Source of the DNA: an uncultured Prevotellaceae bacterium
GTDB taxonomy: Bacteria > Bacteroidota > Bacteroidia > Bacteroidales > Muribaculaceae
Assembly (NCBI GenBank): GCA_900318345.1
Contig: ONKD01000005.1
Coordinates: forward strand, 127,585 to 191,584
Reading direction: 5' to 3'
DNA length: 64,000 bases
Notes under the pieces: model-generated
What the model was told of the DNA's origin: nothing
The model's database searches: none
Seen by the model: only the letters and a program-made list of their open reading frames with translations
Part shown: positions 57,150-64,000 of the stretch, piece after piece
How the letters are laid out: every line of letters begins with the position of its first letter
Position numbering within the stretch: the first letter of the stretch is position 1
Position numbers and translations under genes: made by a program

Positions 57150-58358
57150 ATGGAAGCAATCATTCGTCAGACCTACATTGATAAGATAGAGAAGTACTTG
57201 GGCAAGGAGACCATTGTGGTCATCGTGGGCCAGCGGCGTGTGGGCAAGAGTTACATGTTGCGCCAACTAGTGGAACTGAAATCCAAGGATTTGGCTAACA
57301 ACATTATATATATAGATAAAGAAAAGAGGCAATTTGATGCCATCCAGACTTATCAGGACTTGAATGCCTATATCGAGGAGCATATAGATAGAACCAAGCA
57401 TAATTACATCCTGATTGATGAGGTGCAGGATATCAAGGAGTTTGAACGCAGCATTCGCAGCTACCGCACCGAACCTCACACTGATGTCATCATTACAGGA
57501 TCTAACGCGCGCATGTTGAGCAGCGATTTGAGCACCTTGATAGGCGGCCGCTATAAGGAAATCCACATTTTGCCATTGAGCTATGAGGAATTCCTGATGT
57601 TTCACGCCTTGCCTGATAATGATGACTCGCTGAGCAAATATATCTCATTTGGAGGACTGCCTGGCCTTATTGTGCTGGGCCTGGATGAAGAAGTTGCGAG
57701 AGACTATCAAATGGGTATCTATAACACGGTGTTGCTCAAGGATGTGGTGATGCGTAACCAAATACGTAATGTGCCCTTTCTTGAAGACCTTGTGCGATAT
57801 CTGGCCGACAATACAGGCAAATTGATTTCGGCCAACAACATCTCCAAGTTCATGAAGTCGCAGGGCCTAACGATAACACCCACACTGATCATTAATTATC
57901 TCTCATTCTTGTGCGCTTCCTATATCGTCCAAGAAGTAAAACGGTATGAGGTCCATGGCAAAAAACTGTTTGAGAGCAATGGCAAGTTTTATTTTGAGGA
58001 TCATGGCCTGCGCAATGCCATCGCTGGAGGTGAGCGTGAGGGAGATATCGAGAAAGTGCTGGAAACAGTGGTCTATCAGCACCTCATTCGCATGGGATTC
58101 ACGGTGCGGGTAGGGCAGCTCAAGGCGGGCGAAATTGACTTCGTTTGTAGCAAGAGTGATGGCTCACGGGCTTATGTTCAAGTGGCCTATCTTATAGCCG
58201 ATGACAGCACCTATCAGCGGGAGTTTGGCAACCTCAAGGCCATTAAGGACAATTATCCCAAGTACGTTATCTCGATGTCCCCGTTGGTCAACCGCAGCGA
58301 CGATAATGGCATTACCCACTTGCACCTGCGCCGCTTTCTCACTCAGGGCCTACAATAA
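57150..58358 (+). CDS. AAA_14 ATPase with DUF4143 (PD-(D/E)XK-like) C-terminus
   Basis: A 402-residue P-loop protein: Walker A IVGQRRVGKSYML near residue 25, Walker B NYILIDEVQDIKEF near 90, sensor VIITGSNARML. A helical/winged-helix part (about 190-290, FLEDLVRYLADNTGKLISANNISKFM) leads to DUF4143 with the nuclease-like block GEIDFVCSKSDGSRAYVQVAY, where the usual Glu before Val is Gln. Function of this widespread family is not established. It shares architecture with the protein at 35509, and like it carries repeats around its promoter. Confidence 0.85.
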   Translation: MEAIIRQTYIDKIEKYLGKETIVVIVGQRRVGKSYMLRQLVELKSKDLANNIIYIDKEKRQFDAIQTYQDLNAYIEEHIDRTKHNYILIDEVQDIKEFERSIRSYRTEPHTDVIITGSNARMLSSDLSTLIGGRYKEIHILPLSYEEFLMFHALPDNDDSLSKYISFGGLPGLIVLGLDEEVARDYQMGIYNTVLLKDVVMRNQIRNVPFLEDLVRYLADNTGKLISANNISKFMKSQGLTITPTLIINYLSFLCASYIVQEVKRYEVHGKKLFESNGKFYFEDHGLRNAIAGGEREGDIEKVLETVVYQHLIRMGFTVRVGQLKAGEIDFVCSKSDGSRAYVQVAYLIADDSTYQREFGNLKAIKDNYPKYVISMSPLVNRSDDNGITHLHLRRFLTQGLQ

Positions 58359-58381
58359 TCATGGCGTAAAAAGGGCTCTGT

Positions 58382-59530
58382 CTATTGTGCCTGGTGGTGG
58401 TCGAGTAGCCAGTGCATGAGGTCGAGGCTCATGGCAACGTCGCCCTGGTGGATGAATTTGTCGCGGTCGTTCTCGAGTTTGTGCAGCAATGATTCTGCCT
58501 TGGGCCTGTCTCCCTCCAGGGCGAGGGCTACGGCCATGCCCGTCAACTGCTTGTCGCTCTGGGTGGACGCGTGTTGAGTCACATACTTGGCAATGTCCTC
58601 GGTGTAGTGCTGGCGGGCCTCATCGTCTCGCCCGGTGATGATGCACACTTGGGTCATCAGGTTCTTTACTTCCCACAGGTAAAGTTTCATGTAATCGTCT
58701 TTGTGGCTGAGCGCTGTGGTCAGCAACTGATAGGCGTTTTCCCACTGGTGAAAATCCATCATCCTTGTGGCCGACAGCAACACGGCAGCCACGTGCATGC
58801 TGTTTTTCCAGTCTATGGGCTGGGGCATGGCAAACAGGTGGTCGGGCATATCTTTGTAAGATTGCCCTTCCTGGCTGCGGGCGTTGACGTCAAGAATGTT
58901 GCAGAAACACTGTTTGCTGGCGGGGTCCTTTTCCAGTTGGAACAGGTTGAGGCCGTCGTTGGCCACACCGCCTATCTTCATGGGTATGCCGTTGGTCAAC
59001 GCTGTCAGGAAGTTGATGATGGCCATGATGAGCAACAACACGTTGAGCCACGAGGGCAGGTCAATGAGCCAATACAGCAACAGCGAGACAGCAGCGATGA
59101 GGATGTTGGCCAGCACGCCGCCGGCATTGTACCAGCGCGTGTCGATTTGGTCGATGGGGCGGTCGGGTGGAGCCATCAGGCATTGGCCGCCGGTTCCTGC
59201 CAGCTCAAAGTTGCGCCACCGCAGGCGCCCCTCCTTGTTGATGAGGGTGAAGTTCAGGAAGCGGAACGACACAAAGCGGTAGCCCGTCAGCAGTCCCGCC
59301 ACGAGGTGGCCTCCCTCATGAAGGACGATGTTCAGGATAAAGGCAATTAAAGCGGCGAGGAGCATCCAGGCAATCTCGGCGACATCTGTCAGCGAGAACC
59401 TGCTGATGATTGTTTGGTACACAGTCGAGAGTGACTCGCCCTCGATCAGGGCAATGACAGGGCCGACACAGAGGATGCCGACGCAAATGCCGATGAACAT
59501 ATAACCGATGAGTTTCAACAGGGCTTTCAT
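58382..59530 (-). CDS. M50-like membrane metalloprotease with helical C-terminal region
   Basis: A 382-residue inner-membrane protein. Helices flank the zinc motif IVLHEGGHLVAGL (HEGGH), as in site-2 protease relatives, and about five membrane segments lie in the first 210 residues. The remaining ~170 residues are helical and TPR-like (AVLLSATRMMDFHQWENAYQLL). Intramembrane cleavage of an unknown substrate is likely. The frame is open back to 59611, but the -7 element at 59563-59570 lies inside that extension, so the Met at 59530 (MKALLKLIGYMF) is chosen. Confidence 0.8.
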   Translation of the reverse strand: MKALLKLIGYMFIGICVGILCVGPVIALIEGESLSTVYQTIISRFSLTDVAEIAWMLLAALIAFILNIVLHEGGHLVAGLLTGYRFVSFRFLNFTLINKEGRLRWRNFELAGTGGQCLMAPPDRPIDQIDTRWYNAGGVLANILIAAVSLLLYWLIDLPSWLNVLLLIMAIINFLTALTNGIPMKIGGVANDGLNLFQLEKDPASKQCFCNILDVNARSQEGQSYKDMPDHLFAMPQPIDWKNSMHVAAVLLSATRMMDFHQWENAYQLLTTALSHKDDYMKLYLWEVKNLMTQVCIITGRDDEARQHYTEDIAKYVTQHASTQSDKQLTGMAVALALEGDRPKAESLLHKLENDRDKFIHQGDVAMSLDLMHWLLDHHQAQ

Positions 59531-59562
59531 AGCTGCAAATTGATTTGATGAATTACCATTGG

Positions 59563-59570
59563 CAAAGGTA
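59563..59570 (-). promoter_or_regulatory. -7 element TACCTTTG of the M50-like gene
   Basis: Minus-strand TAnnTTTG match 32 bases before the ATG at 59530. Confidence 0.45.
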
Positions 59571-59622
59571 ATAAGTTTTTTGGAAAAAGAACATGTCCCA
59601 TCTGATGTCACTGCGCGCTAAC

Positions 59623-59777
59623 CCATGGCCTCAACACGGGTAATTCTCGTGATTTTTTCATGAATTAACGGCCAATTAACGACAATTCATGTGAAAAATA
59701 TGTCGTGTCCTTCCCTCAACGCGGTAGCCTCTCTAACCTTTAACCACTAACCTTTAAACTGCGAGCGAAGCGAGCAT
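59623..59777 (+). repeat. 155-bp direct repeat, left copy
   Basis: Identical to 63181-63335 except for three substitutions around 59698-59702, with no gaps. It contains a 7-bp array (CTCTAAC, CTTTAAC, CACTAAC, CTTTAAA at 59731-59758) and ends in a GCGAGC-type hairpin. The two copies flank the methyltransferase and HNH genes. Confidence 0.92.
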
Positions 59778-59863
59778 ATCGTATTTTTTAGCAAATTGTT
59801 GTTCCCCGTGGCTCAAGTTGTCTTTTTTGTTGTCAAAAAGCATGGTTTCCCATTAAAAAACAC

Positions 59864-59871
59864 TATCTTTG
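59864..59871 (+). promoter_or_regulatory. -7 element TATCTTTG before the structured leader
   Basis: Exact TAnnTTTG match; transcription would start near 59878, giving a leader of about 280 bases to the methyltransferase ATG. No good -33 box. Confidence 0.45.
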
Positions 59872-59877
59872 CCCGTG

Positions 59878-60157
59878 GAAATGGAATCGTTTTTTCCTTT
59901 TCCAAGACATTGCGGTATAATATTTAGCGTTGGCTATTATTCAAACGTTCAGAAACTTGCAGGTAGAAGAACAAAATTGCAGAATAATGGTGACGCTCAC
60001 CTTGTGTGGGCGTTCCTTGTCTGTAATTTTAGGTTTCCTGCAAGTACCTTGAACGTTGGACGGGGATTCGTCCACCTTCTGTGTCCCGAGGTACTTGCAG
60101 GATCGTTTTGTTTACTGGCCCAGCGCATTGATAACTTCAAAAATTATTGATGCAGTT
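59878..60157 (+). ncRNA. Candidate structured leader or small RNA with alternative stems
   Basis: The segment 60037-60057 can pair with an upstream stretch (AACGTTC at 59944-59950 and ACTTGCAGG at 59955-59963) or with a downstream one (perfect 12 bp, 60037-60048 with 60090-60101). The two are mutually exclusive. Local hairpins sit at 59992-60014 and 60058-60073. This is the layout of an attenuator or riboswitch-like switch ahead of the methyltransferase. A weak 89-codon frame from 59881 to 60150 runs through it. No known RNA class is recognised. Confidence 0.5.
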
Positions 60158-61321
60158 ATGGCAAACGAATCCCTATCACGGGCCAAGGAGGCCAAAAATG
60201 ACGAGTTTTACACTCAATATCCTGACATCGAGAAGGAGATTAACGCCTATCTCGAGTATAACCCCGACGTGTTTCGTGGCAAGACGGTACTGTTGCCCTG
60301 TGACGATCCCGAGTGGAGCAATTTCACCAAGTTCTTTGCCCAAAACTTTGAGACCTTCGGCTTGAAAAAGTTGATTTCCACAAGTTATGCCCCCGAGAGC
60401 AAGAAGTACAAGTTTGGCTACCAGCCGTCGCTTTTTGAGACCGAGGCGCCACATTATGATGCCGACAAGAGCAAAACCCACGGCAAAATCTTCGTCCTTG
60501 ACCATGACGTGACGGGCGATGGGCGCATCAACGTCGAGGACCTGCAATGGCAATACCTGGAGGGGGACGGCGACTTTCGCAGCCCGGAAATCTGCGCCCT
60601 GCGCGACCAAGCCGACATTATCATCACCAACCCGCCTTTCTCACTGTTCCGCCAATTCCTGCTCTGGATTCTTGAGGCTAATAAACAGTTTGTCGTCATT
60701 GGAAATAAAAATTGTGTTACTTATAAAGAAGTTTTTCCTCTCATAAAAGAGAACAAATTATGGTCTGGTAGACGTGAGTGGTCGGGAGGAATGTGGTTTG
60801 AAACTAAAAACAATGAAGATGTTGATGAAGTCATAGATGGAGTAAACATGAAAAATGTTCCTTCGATTTGGCTTACTAATATTGACCATGGCAGACGCCA
60901 CCAACCATTATCATTAATGACAATGGGTGATAACCTGAAATTTAGCCGCCATAAAGAAATCAAGGGAAAGAGTGCTTATGAGCATTACGATAATTATGAT
61001 GCAATTGAAGTACCCTTTACCGATGCCATCCCTAGCGACTATGATGGTGCTATGGGAGTGCCTATTTCGTTCCTAGATAAATACTGTCCTGAGCAATTTG
61101 AGATATTGGGAATAACAAAAACTTGGTTTGGGATAGCAAATAAAATCTATCCTAACCAAATTCAAGTTGATAAAAACGGGAATAAGAGTAATGTGACAAA
61201 ATTAAATGACGGAGCGACAATAAAGCATTCAACACCACCTATTGGAGAAACCTATTATATTGTAGGAGACAATTTCTATACTCAACTGTACGCCAGAGTA
61301 CTAATCCGCAAAAAGCAATAA
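60158..61321 (+). CDS. Adenine-specific DNA methyltransferase, EcoRI-methylase family
   Basis: A 387-residue cytoplasmic SAM-dependent N6-adenine methyltransferase. Motif IV is NPPF (158-161) in ADIIITNPPFSLFRQF. The N-terminal LSRAKEAKNDEFYTQYPDIEKE and LLPCDDPEWSNFTKFFAQNF are typical of the EcoRI-methylase family. ATG 60158 is used because the upstream extension lies in the structured leader and is unlike the family. The base composition changes sharply near 60690: the first ~177 codons are GC-rich, the rest AT-rich, suggesting a mosaic gene. The DUF262-HNH gene begins 4 bases after its stop, so the two form one unit, probably modification plus nuclease. Confidence 0.88.
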   Translation: MANESLSRAKEAKNDEFYTQYPDIEKEINAYLEYNPDVFRGKTVLLPCDDPEWSNFTKFFAQNFETFGLKKLISTSYAPESKKYKFGYQPSLFETEAPHYDADKSKTHGKIFVLDHDVTGDGRINVEDLQWQYLEGDGDFRSPEICALRDQADIIITNPPFSLFRQFLLWILEANKQFVVIGNKNCVTYKEVFPLIKENKLWSGRREWSGGMWFETKNNEDVDEVIDGVNMKNVPSIWLTNIDHGRRHQPLSLMTMGDNLKFSRHKEIKGKSAYEHYDNYDAIEVPFTDAIPSDYDGAMGVPISFLDKYCPEQFEILGITKTWFGIANKIYPNQIQVDKNGNKSNVTKLNDGATIKHSTPPIGETYYIVGDNFYTQLYARVLIRKKQ

Positions 61322-61325
61322 GACG

Positions 61326-62486
61326 ATGAAAGCGAAACTAAGAACCGATATCACCGTGCGCGACATCTGCGAGGGCTTTGTTTACAATGAGTTGGAGGGC
61401 AAGGGCCTGTTTGGCTTGAGCGGCAAACTGACCATCCAACCCGAATACCAGCGCAACTACATCTATGCCGACGGTAAGAAAGATGTGGCGGTCATCGACT
61501 CGGTGCTGAAAGGCTATCCGCTGGGACTGATATACTTTAACAAGGTGGGCGAACGACTGGAGGTGCTCGACGGACAGCAGCGCATCACCAGCCTGGGCCG
61601 CTTCGTGACCCACAAACTCGCCATCAAGGACAAGAACGGCATGCAGCAGTACATCGACGGCTTGAACGAGGAGGACCGCAACAAGGTGCTTAACACCAAG
61701 CTGCTCATCTACATCTGTGAGGGCACCGAGGGCGAAATCAAGGAGTGGTTCCAGACTATCAACATCGTGGGCGTGGCGTTGAACAATCAGGAGAAACTGA
61801 ATGCCATCTATTCGGGCCCGTTTGTCACCGCCCTGAAAGAGGAATTCAGCAACAGCCAGAATGCCCATATCCAGAAGTGGAGCGCCTATGTCACGGGCTC
61901 GGCCAGTCGGCAGGACTATCTCGAGCGCGCCCTGCAATGGGTCAGCCAGGACAATGTGGAGGGCTACATGAGTCTACATCGCCAGGACACTGCCATCACG
62001 CCCGTCAAGACCTATTTCAACGCGGTGATCGATTGGGCGTCGGGCGTGTTCAGCGACGTGATCCCCGAGATGCGCGGCCTGGAATGGGGACGCCTCTATG
62101 AGCAGTACCACAAGACCCCCTATAACGTGGCGGCCGTGTCACAACGGCTCCACCAACTGCTGGCCGACCCCTATGTGACCAACCACAAGGGCATCGTCGA
62201 GTATATCCTGGGCGGCGAGCAGGACAAGAGCCTGCTGAACATCCGTGTCTTTGACAAGGCGACCATCACCCGCGTCTATGCCAAGCAGACCCAGGCCGCC
62301 AAGGAGAACGGCGTGAGCAACTGCCCCGACTGCGTCTTGCAGCAGGGTAGCAACAGCACCCGCATCTACAAACTCAATGAGATGGATGCCGACCACGTGA
62401 CGGCGTGGAGCAAGGGCGGCGCCACCGACGAGAGCAACTGCCGGATGCTGTGCCGTCACCACAACCGCTCCAAGGGTAACAAGTAG
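61326..62486 (+). CDS. DUF262 protein with C-terminal HNH nuclease
   Basis: A 386-residue cytoplasmic protein. The DUF262 (ParB/GmrS-like) domain shows QPEYQRNYIY (38-47) and LDGQQRITSL (81-90). A helical middle part follows, and the C-terminus is an HNH endonuclease: NCPDC, then DADHVTAWSKGG and NCRMLCRHHNRSKG, with paired cysteines for zinc. GmrSD-type relatives are NTP-dependent restriction enzymes against modified phage DNA. Coupling to an adenine methyltransferase suggests the nuclease half of a restriction-type defence pair. GC-rich, unlike the end of the upstream gene. Confidence 0.88.
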   Translation: MKAKLRTDITVRDICEGFVYNELEGKGLFGLSGKLTIQPEYQRNYIYADGKKDVAVIDSVLKGYPLGLIYFNKVGERLEVLDGQQRITSLGRFVTHKLAIKDKNGMQQYIDGLNEEDRNKVLNTKLLIYICEGTEGEIKEWFQTINIVGVALNNQEKLNAIYSGPFVTALKEEFSNSQNAHIQKWSAYVTGSASRQDYLERALQWVSQDNVEGYMSLHRQDTAITPVKTYFNAVIDWASGVFSDVIPEMRGLEWGRLYEQYHKTPYNVAAVSQRLHQLLADPYVTNHKGIVEYILGGEQDKSLLNIRVFDKATITRVYAKQTQAAKENGVSNCPDCVLQQGSNSTRIYKLNEMDADHVTAWSKGGATDESNCRMLCRHHNRSKGNK

Positions 62487-62589
62487 GAAAATGCTCAATC
62501 AGCAGAGGATGACTTGGTATAGCATCCGCTTAAATGAACGCGGTCGAAGGCCCTCGTGGATTGGTAACAATGTCCCATGACTTTGTAGA

Positions 62590-62681
62590 GGGTGTGTCAT
62601 AATTTTCGCTTGAAACATTGATCGAGCTTCGCTCGCCCGCAGGGCGGTTATAATTCCCGCAGATAAATTATGACACAGCCC
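62590..62681. mobile_element. 92-bp MITE-like element
   Basis: Terminal inverted repeats GGGTGTGTCATAATTT (from 62590) and AAATTATGACACAGCCC (to 62681) differ by one inserted base. The inside contains short GCGAGC/GCTCGC and CCCGCAGGGCGG pairs. No coding capacity. The right-hand ~45 bp recur at 63042-63085 without the left end. The ends look like insertion-sequence termini, but I cannot name the family. Confidence 0.6.
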
Positions 62682-62721
62682 GCCCCCGCATCCATCTGGT
62701 TCCGTATGGCGGGTTGCCAAC

Positions 62722-62787
62722 CCGCCCCCCGCGTCCCCCCGCGTCCCCCCGCGTCCCCTCCGTTCCCTCCGTCTAGTCCCGTGGGCC
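62722..62787 (+). repeat. C-rich tandem repeat array 1
   Basis: Three to four units of CCCCCGCGT followed by CCCTCCGTT-type units. The last 29 bases (62759-62787) are repeated exactly at 63154-63182. The minus strand has several G runs and G-quadruplex potential. Confidence 0.75.
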
Positions 62788-62840
62788 GTGGCTCCGCCAC
62801 GGTTCGTTCCACCCGTTCCACCCGTTCCACCCGTTCCTTC
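62786..62840 (+). repeat. Hairpin and CGTTCCACC repeats
   Basis: CCGTGGC-TCC-GCCACGG hairpin (62786-62803), then tandem CGTTCCACC units of 9 bp to about 62837. No gene. Confidence 0.65.
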
Positions 62841-62892
62841 TGCCCTTCTGCCCATGTGAAATATCTATGATGCAAGTTACTATTAAACAATA

Positions 62893-62929
62893 CCTTAGCG
62901 CCTTAGCGCCTTAGCGCCTTTGCGTGGGG
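62893..62929 (-). repeat. Inverted CGCAAAG-type box with internal tandem units
   Basis: CCTTAGCG is repeated and leads into CCTTTGCGTGGGG, the reverse of the boxes at 21415 and 37937. Confidence 0.6.
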
Positions 62930-63041
62930 TAGTTCCTTCAATCAATTTTAAAATAATAATTTGTTTTAATTTCCCGAAACTTGGCGGCATCTCAGCCATT
63001 GAAGTAAACTTCATGGCCTTCGATTTGCTCAAGTTTTCCCG

Positions 63042-63085
63042 CCCGAAGGGCGGTTATTCCCGCAGATAAATTATGACACAGCCCG
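63042..63085 (+). repeat. Partial second copy of the MITE-like right end
   Basis: Matches 62636-62682 apart from one substitution and a 3-base gap (GCAGATAAATTATGACACAG shared). The left end is missing. Confidence 0.65.
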
Positions 63086-63182
63086 TCCCCTCCGTCCCCT
63101 CCGTTCTCTCCGTCCCCTCCGTCCCCTCCGTTCTCTCCGTCCCTTCCGTTTCATCCGTTCCCTCCGTCTAGTCCCGTGGGCC
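63084..63182 (+). repeat. C-rich tandem repeat array 2
   Basis: About nine units of roughly 9 bp of the types CGTCCCCTC and CGTTCTCTC, running straight into the right 155-bp repeat. No gene. Confidence 0.75.
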
Positions 63183-63335
63183 ATGGCCTCAACACGGGTA
63201 ATTCTCGTGATTTTTTCATGAATTAACGGCCAATTAACGACAATTCATGTGAAAATTGTCTCGTGTCCTTCCCTCAACGCGGTAGCCTCTCTAACCTTTA
63301 ACCACTAACCTTTAAACTGCGAGCGAAGCGAGCAT
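63181..63335 (+). repeat. 155-bp direct repeat, right copy
   Basis: Same sequence and orientation as 59623-59777, offset exactly 3558 bases, with three substitutions. It includes the 7-bp array at 63289-63316. Confidence 0.92.
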
Positions 63336-63440
63336 TGTTTTCTTTTTATAAACTGTTGTCCCTCGTTGTCCCCGTTGTCTTTAAATTGCTAGTGGTCAGG
63401 CTGCGTCGAGACATAAAAAATGAAAAAAACAGTTTTTCAT

Positions 63441-63471
63441 TTTGTTCTGTGCTCGACTTGCACTAACTTTG
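63441..63471 (+). promoter_or_regulatory. Promoter of thrS
   Basis: TTTG (63441-63444), 19 bases, TAACTTTG (63464-63471): full consensus, 65 bases before the ATG. Confidence 0.75.
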
Positions 63472-63535
63472 CAAGTTAAAATATGTTGTGCTGTTGTAGG
63501 GCACAACGCAAACTATTAATTATCAAATACTTAAT

Positions 63536-64000
63536 ATGATTAACATCAAGTTTCCTGACGGCAATGTACGTCAATATGAGGATGGAGTAACCCCTCTGGA
63601 CATTGCCAAGAGCATTAGCGAAGGCTTTGCACGCAACGTGCTGGCCGCATCATTAAACGACGAGGAATGGGATATCTCACGCCCCCTGGCCGAGGCTCTG
63701 CAGGAGCTGTACCCTGGCGTACAGTTCGGTATTGGCCCGGCAGTAGAGAACGGTTTCTACTATGACATCGACACCGGTGGCAACCCCTTGACTGACGCAG
63801 ACTTCGCCAAGATTGAGAAAAAGATGACAGAACTCGCCCAGAAGAATGAGGACGTTGTGCGTGCCGACATCAGCAAGGCCGACGCACTGAAGTTCTTCGG
63901 TGACAAGGGTCAGACCTTGAAGTGCGAGCTCATCAATGACCTGGAAGACGGTCACATCACTACTTATACCCAGGGCAACTTCACCGACCTGTGCCGTGGC
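63536..64000 (+). CDS. thrS: Threonyl-tRNA synthetase, N-terminal part (runs off the window), with internal deletion
   Basis: 155 codons are present. The TGS domain starts normally ([19 protein letters not shown]...[17 protein letters not shown]). It then jumps directly to [26 protein letters not shown]. In ThrRS proteins about 30 residues lie between these points, comprising the end of TGS and the block containing HxxxH, which binds the editing-site metal. Later editing-domain parts ([12 protein letters not shown]) are kept. The reading frame is intact across the junction at about 63686-63691. It charges tRNA-Thr; proofreading of Ser-tRNA-Thr could be lost in this form. An assembly error or a second functional copy elsewhere are alternatives. 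Confidence 0.85.

Follow-up and report, generated by a model that had tools for sequence, protein, structure and literature searches.

The window analysed here is a 64,000-nucleotide stretch of DNA from an uncultured Prevotellaceae bacterium (GenBank assembly GCA_900318345.1, contig ONKD01000005.1, positions 127,585 to 191,584), and its subject is a cassette in which the gene for an EcoRI-type adenine methylase is followed by the gene for a DUF262-HNH nuclease. This pair is a two-gene restriction-modification (R-M) system. Taken together, the evidence makes it reasonably probable that the system is a movable R-M cassette in which the methylase likely acts as the targeting subunit for the nuclease, which enters its sites with duplication of host sequence, and which is controlled by a leader RNA. 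Mobile R-M cassettes are a known kind of element; what is new here is a methylase with two independently exchanged segments next to a nuclease without such a segment. This variant was not found described, and a literature search covering titles and abstract openings turned up no account of an EcoRI-type methylase/DUF262-HNH pair.

The cassette lies between two copies of a 155-base-pair (bp) sequence. The original prediction had described these as same-orientation repeats 3558 bp apart with three differences, and alignment bore this out (98% identity over 155 bp, far beyond chance); over the extended spans 59623-59825 and 63181-63382 the copies are 90.6% similar across 203 bp. The further elements it had placed between the repeats were confirmed as well, the two genes with their 4-base gap by Pfam matches and coordinates, and the structured leader and repeat arrays by folding of 59930-60140 (−75.4 kcal/mol, z −4.7, 0/200 shuffles as good) and by four tandem arrays. 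The order is an M50-type peptidase gene (a weak Pfam match under the curated cut-off), repeat 1, a promoter-like element, the leader, the methylase gene, the nuclease gene, an array-rich spacer, repeat 2 and thrS. Lengths of proteins are given in amino acids (aa), and G048 is the closest relative.

59623-59777, + strand: direct repeat copy 1 (similarity runs on to 59825)
59817-62491, + strand: core cassette of promoter, leader, methylase and nuclease (homology to G048 at 59817-61120 and 61289-62491)
59864-59871, + strand: TATCTTTG, promoter-like element (also seen upstream of the leader in relatives, by eye rather than by a scoring tool)
60158-61321, + strand: EcoRI-type adenine methylase, 387 aa (Pfam PF13651, E 7e-119; PADLOC MTase_II, E 1e-81)
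61326-62486, + strand: DUF262-HNH nuclease, 386 aa (GmrSD_N, E 1.5e-19; HNH, E 2.8e-7)
61431-61811, + strand: DUF262 domain of the nuclease
62376-62483, + strand: HNH domain of the nuclease
62487-63180, no strand: spacer holding short tandem arrays (absent from G048)
62725-62773, 62805-62837, 62893-62924 and 63083-63168: tandem arrays of 8- to 10-bp units
63181-63335, + strand: direct repeat copy 2 (similarity runs on to 63382)

The element at 59864-59871 fits TAnnTTTG, the −7 promoter motif of Bacteroidota.

The gene pair and its distribution

A total of 110 loci were examined, made up of 101 distinct loci and nine duplicates (L127-L135). The methylase gene was found upstream of the nuclease gene on the same strand in 98 of the 101 distinct loci, which came from many phyla; with duplicates counted the figure was 107/110, and 99 of the 107 methylase genes lay within 400 bp. 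All three loci without a methylase were cut by a contig end. The original prediction had proposed a search for the pair in other genomes and had named its never co-occurring elsewhere as an outcome that would speak against it; in these loci, co-occurrence is the rule.

A relative of the nuclease was carried by 49/101 genomes of the window's genus. A wider scan of genome contigs yielded at least 573 loci, and the best 80 (66-87% identity) bore titles from Bacteroidota, Chloroflexi, Saccharibacteria and other Patescibacteria, Bacillota, archaea and more, many of them metagenome-assembled genomes. The pair was also present on an Enterococcus faecium plasmid and in a Flavobacterium phage, with the methylase gene directly upstream. 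Among the public plasmid and phage matches listed, the nuclease was annotated, where at all, only as a DUF262 domain-containing protein, an HNH endonuclease or a hypothetical protein. In a second subfamily (nuclease approximately 40% identical), an EcoRI-like methylase gene adjoined the nuclease gene in 20/20 loci fetched, and the window's own genome holds a member of this subfamily (L285). A third subfamily contributed one locus (L289) with an EcoRI-like methylase beside the nuclease, recognized by eye.

No third gene family recurred in more than 4/71 loci (flank ≤ 4 kb), and a missing third subunit was dropped as a candidate, since no conserved neighbour was present in these 71 loci. Both proteins were modelled by PADLOC as Type II, the REase_II model covering the nuclease over its full length. 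The suggestion of a restriction system lacking a classical restriction enzyme was therefore kept in its first part and given up in its second, the DUF262-HNH protein being the presumed restriction enzyme. Several of these restriction units adjoin aminoacyl-tRNA synthetase genes, namely thrS in the window and G048 (by eye) and metG in the sister genome G066; the unit of G097 lies beside an apparent tyrS and L285 near proS (both named by eye).

Flanking repeats and insertion of the cassette

Repeats were scored at the 19 loci with both flanks (18 sisters and the window) among the 101 distinct loci, by asking for a direct repeat (≥ 60 bp, ≥ 85%) with a copy in the 2.5 kb to either side. Repeats flanked 6/19 cassettes including the window (5/18 sisters) versus 5/128 random same-size spans from the same loci (Fisher p 0.0007; 0.003 without the window). 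They were locus-specific, with at most short stretches common between loci. In five of the six loci, 330-366 bp separated the end of the methylase-side copy from the methylase start (832 bp in L124), and the other copy started 12-109 bp behind the nuclease gene in the five sister loci.

The G066 locus consists of a repeat, the cassette, a second repeat, a gene for a 388-aa ATPase-like protein, a third repeat and metG, and so holds three copies and two inserts. In G059 and G078 the same flanking gene is followed by a single repeat copy (83% over 178 bp and 84% over 144 bp, respectively) and metG, with no insert. By this comparison of filled and empty sites, the G066 cassette was shown to have been inserted with a long target duplication, and the site is a clean case of such insertion outside Helicobacter pylori. 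An empty site with one repeat was what the original prediction had expected for a removable or exchangeable cassette, and of that description the movable part holds; deletion by recombination between the repeat copies, which could remove the unit, is plausible only. More generally, cassettes of this family can enter intergenic sites and duplicate approximately 90-200 bp of host sequence. The ATPase-like gene between copies 2 and 3 (L111:10548-11714) looks like a second target-duplicating insert; in G058, which has no cassette there, this gene comes after the flanking gene and repeat.

Nobusato et al. 2000 reportedly described insertion with long target duplication. In the portions of two reports that were available (PMC1643837, PMC3031569), such insertion is recorded in H. 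pylori and often tied to restriction genes; those cases share with the present ones long variable direct repeats and a single-copy empty site. Unlike the H. pylori cases, the cassettes here have a gut Bacteroidales host, and the second inserted gene of G066 shares the repeat.

Three points weigh against a general role for target duplication: 13/18 sister cassettes had no repeats meeting the criterion, the 60-bp/85% threshold was chosen after a looser scan (some match at 10/18 sisters), and no matching for intergenic borders was applied to the random spans.

At the window's own site, a target duplication is likely. Upstream of thrS in the 29 best other loci, the M50 gene was present in five, a 642-aa helicase in three, a 347-aa protein in two and the cassette in one (G048); none of these four was detected in the fetched flank of the remaining loci. 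At the empty thrS site of G013, the first 94 bp of the repeat are present once, in degenerate form (82%). Homology to G048 starts at 59817, just inside the extended end of repeat 1 (59825), and ends at 62491, 5 bases past the nuclease gene, so the repeats bracket the core unit; similarity comes back only at 63435, before thrS.

The alternative is that the window repeats are ordinary dispersed intergenic repeats that flank the cassette by chance and did not arise from insertion, which we regard as the less probable account but one to be taken seriously. Scoring of 40/61 first-look candidates gave at least 36 shorter stretches (29-63 bp) of the repeat elsewhere in the window's genome, and the 155-bp repeat is therefore built of dispersed intergenic sequence. 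In G048 this thrS site has the cassette but lacks the repeats, and these are therefore not a conserved part of the cassette. Two further observations weigh in the same direction, namely that the window repeats, at 98%, resemble each other more closely than the cassettes do and that the nuclease gene lies 695 bp from repeat 2, versus 12-109 bp in the five sisters. On the other side, only two full-length copies were found in the genome, both at the cassette; repeat 1 stops where the G048 cassette homology starts; in five sisters the arrangement is comparable, with different repeat sequences; and the G013 empty site has its one degenerate 94-bp copy. The repeats occurring widely without cassettes, which would have told against the original prediction, thus holds for the fragments and not for the full-length repeat.

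Two neighbouring genes were noted in passing. In the window thrS (63536-64000), an in-frame stretch of 28 codons (84 bp) is missing after 63685 in comparison with relatives whose N-terminal alignment is in one piece; the G048 thrS aligns on either side of this gap, which is a deletion or an assembly error. Close to the cassette, at 57150-58358, an AAA_14-DUF4143 ATPase gene matches the PADLOC candidate PDC-S01 (E 1e-139).

Exchangeable methylase segments and targeting

Two stretches of the methylase vary far more than the remainder.

60749-60895, + strand: methylase hypervariable segment 1, aa 198-246 (putative target recognition domain)
61100-61288, + strand: methylase hypervariable segment 2, aa 315-377 (putative target recognition domain)

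Segment statistics were calculated on 94 non-duplicate loci, after the nine duplicates, the three loci without a methylase and four loci with a methylase length outside 340-520 aa had been left out. Mean pairwise identity was 0.35 for segment 1 and 0.15 for segment 2, versus 0.68 for the methylase scaffold and 0.715 for the nuclease, and the lowest identity in any 30-residue window was 0.05 in the methylase versus 0.52 in the nuclease. With sharing set at ≥ 75% and differing at < 40% (segment 2) or < 50% (segment 1), 144 locus pairs shared segment 1 and not segment 2, 48 shared segment 2 and not segment 1, and nine shared both; segment clusters formed 78 distinct combinations in the 94 loci. 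Judged by these patterns, segments 1 and 2 are exchanged independently of each other. Neither these segments nor the wide spread of the leader family (below) had been part of the original prediction.

The second subfamily behaves similarly, its methylase dipping to 0.32 in the lowest 30-residue window and its nuclease having no dip except at a ragged N-terminus (0.54). Of its second segments, 9/20 match first-subfamily segments at ≥ 55%, with six different best partners. Of its first segments, 10/18 match at this level, all with the same best partner, and these therefore represent one shared allele. Even at a single site the segments differ: between the window and G048 at thrS, DNA identity is 92% in the leader, 91% in the methylase N-terminus and 88% in the nuclease, versus 58% in the segment 1 block and 45% in the segment 2 block.

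A nuclease that read its own target would be expected to have a matching variable region, and this one has none; the target of both enzymes is therefore probably set by the methylase, in the manner of HsdS, Mod and the BREX methylase. The cassette would then be a self-contained movable unit of promoter, structured leader RNA, methylase and nuclease, in which the methylase with its two exchangeable segments most likely also targets the DUF262-HNH nuclease. As read from sequence evolution, a segment swap would alter marking and cutting together and leave the nuclease unchanged. The nuclease, with a ParB-like NTPase domain and an HNH active site, would cut DNA carrying an unmarked site, and its family and fold suggest that nucleotide hydrolysis powers or licenses cutting.

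Structure prediction agrees with this assignment in part. The nuclease model had a mean predicted local distance difference test score (pLDDT) of 84.7 and a predicted template modelling score (pTM) of 0.64, and Foldseek returned BrxU as the best match (E 8.5e-4), followed by ParB and, weakly, HNH nucleases. A nucleoside triphosphate-using DUF262 domain joined to an HNH domain fits both the Pfam domains and these predicted fold matches. The methylase model (mean pLDDT 80.4) was uncertain in segment 2 and the N-terminus and gave no Foldseek match against the PDB at E 0.001 or better; sequence searches of the PDB gave no match for either protein.

Some observations weigh against the explanation as a whole. 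Template modelling scores of the Foldseek matches were low (approximately 0.2). The part between the segments has also diverged between the window and G048 (73% DNA identity), and the segments are called recognition domains by analogy only. With the scaffold controlled, a weak residual correlation between nuclease and segments was left (partial Mantel, 0.10, p 0.003; 0.074, p 0.015). In favour of the explanation, segment 1 had no outstanding nuclease column (highest z 3.8, versus 10.5 in the methylase scaffold); against it, the nuclease reached z 7.7 for segment 2, where the scaffold reached 14.6. The nuclease may accordingly show some co-adaptation to the segments.

A different account would make the nuclease a modification-sensing or self-toxic effector of low specificity, restrained by the methylase or its mark, so that the segments alter only the mark. 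BrxU is the best match of the nuclease model, and relatives with a DUF262 domain either target modified DNA (GmrSD, BrxU) or work alongside a different DNA-marking system (SspE), as described in the available portions of PMC12707154 and PMC4619093; SspE is said to arrest growth without its marking partner. We nevertheless consider this account unlikely, given the strict pairing with a methylase gene, the replacement of DUF1524 by HNH PF01844 and the need for such a nuclease still to read which sites are unmarked. An orthodox Type II system, in which the DUF262-HNH protein reads the target itself and coevolves with the methylase, is improbable: the PADLOC Type II models and the weak residual correlation speak for it, but neither subfamily has a hypervariable segment in its nuclease, the methylase segments are almost fully exchanged even between close relatives at one site, and segments are partly common to subfamilies whose nucleases are approximately 40% identical.

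The preferred reading, in which the methylase directs the nuclease, places the cassette between several known systems. It shares protein families and adjacent genes with Type II R-M systems that have an EcoRI-family methylase (PF13651, MTase_II, REase_II), and it differs from the orthodox form in its DUF262-HNH nuclease without a hypervariable region and in the two independently exchanged segments of its methylase. Movement of recognition domains between genes changes specificity in Type I HsdS and Type III Mod of H. pylori as well (PMC3983042, available portions). Unlike Type I systems, the cassette has no separate S subunit that could be found in 71 loci and no helicase domain in either protein, and unlike Type III it combines PF13651 with DUF262-HNH instead of a PF01555 Mod with a ResIII-helicase Res. 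As in PglX/BrxX of bacteriophage exclusion (BREX) systems, where, according to the accessible text of PMC12707154, the methylase is needed for marking and restriction, the recognition domain would lie inside the methylase; unlike BREX, the cassette has only two genes and no third conserved neighbour. A DUF262 domain with a DGQQR motif, a ParB-like fold and an HNH-type nuclease are shared with GmrSD, BrxU and SspE (PMC4619093, PMC12707154, in part), from which the cassette nuclease differs in its pairing with a methylase and in its C-terminal HNH PF01844, DUF1524 not being found.

If the methylase directs the nuclease, this is the smallest layout known to us in which one segment swap re-targets both marking and cutting, and specificities could be read and recombined from sequence. 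We put forward only tentatively, with chances close to even, the wider proposal of a minimal two-protein class whose EcoRI-type methylase, with two freely exchangeable segments, is the sole targeting subunit for an NTP-using DUF262-HNH nuclease. This class would be movable across bacteria and archaea, inserting with duplication of host sequence, and in Bacteroidales it would be expressed under a leader from a large, uncatalogued family of switching RNAs that also stands before Type III restriction operons and genes for surface proteins.

The leader RNA

The methylase gene is preceded by a leader with the following parts.

59924-60157, + strand: structured leader RNA (model core 59925-60078)
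59955-59963, + strand: segment S1, which can pair with S2
60037-60049, + strand: segment S2, complementary to S1 and S1-prime
60089-60101, + strand: segment S1-prime, which competes with S1 for S2
60126-60153, + strand: hairpin abutting the methylase start codon (arms kept by eye in a 14-sequence alignment)

Leader DNA identity was 85-91% in 12 other close systems, with G097 lower at 80%. A single stem differs almost throughout yet remains paired, 8/50 pairs having changed on both sides, all of them there. A second leader sequence class, before more distant methylases of the genus, had double changes in 27/48 pairs. A model (R2) was built from seven sequences, and with its E-values being rough, matches at E ≤ 0.001 were obtained in 188/297 genomes of the bacterial family and 26/30 genera. 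In an alignment of 23 sequences, 95.3% of cells were paired (shuffles 81.4%, slid alignments 31-46%) and 22/35 pairs changed on both sides, versus 12.3 in shuffles; 16 of the 23 sequences were not used for the model, and the alignment, having been fitted to the model, leans towards it. The family thus covaries strongly, and this covariation shows the leader structure. Four weak R1 matches (L218-L221, E approximately 1e-5) were at one point considered chance, which was rejected because R2 (whose alignment includes these four) and covariation point to the same RNA.

The leader family is uncatalogued in Rfam and precedes two kinds of restriction system as well as secreted-protein-like genes. Searches of Rfam 15 returned only tRNAs, with no leader match up to E 1 in window positions 58000-64000 and L217-L221 or up to E 0.1 in eight further leader loci, and a known Rfam RNA was rejected as there was no covariance-model match. 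The main texts of two candidate-RNA papers (PMC8040213, PMC2864571), as far as available, contain neither "methyltransferase" nor "restriction", and their supplements may still list the family. In G097 and G004 the operon behind the leader is of Type III (a PF01555 methylase, then ResIII). Of the best 30 R2 loci, ten lie before methylases (nine of these being of the class, or the very sequences, used in model building), 14 before frames with a lipobox-like signal, which was called by a loose pattern, and six before neither. A restriction-specific RNA was therefore dropped as a candidate, 20/30 of these matches preceding other genes. The window's genome has a second, weaker leader copy (L254, G000:C79:49271-49483, E 3e-4), and the frame after it looks, by eye only, like a repeat-rich secreted protein. 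The leader raises the question of which signal connects restriction operons with genes for secreted proteins in gut Bacteroidales.

The natural reading is a switch that controls expression of the operon; we infer that it would act, probably, through the two competing pairings of S2. Weighing against a central role, the leader is absent from 4/17 close systems and is therefore not essential. Terminator-like sites on the leader stretch were barely above shuffles and had poor T runs. Behind several family copies among L218-L221 and L224-L253, a terminator-like hairpin and T run can be seen by eye.

Two other ideas were set aside. An IscB-like RNA-guided nuclease with the leader as its guide was rejected because only the HNH segment was similar (13.9 bits versus a cut-off of 175) and because the leader also precedes unrelated genes. 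The variable leader stem was considered to follow the methylase recognition segments, and inspection by eye, with no formal test, gave no consistent link.

A 70-nucleotide piece like the apical part of the leader is intergenic in L046 (G024), with no methylase in the fetched stretch. By eye, different-looking structured leaders precede the same methylase in L150, L152, L155, L172, L176 and L184 (Saccharibacteria titles), in L173 and L182 (Alphaproteobacteria titles) and in L136 and L177. In the saccharibacterial leaders, one helix strand seems by eye to occur in a third, competing copy.

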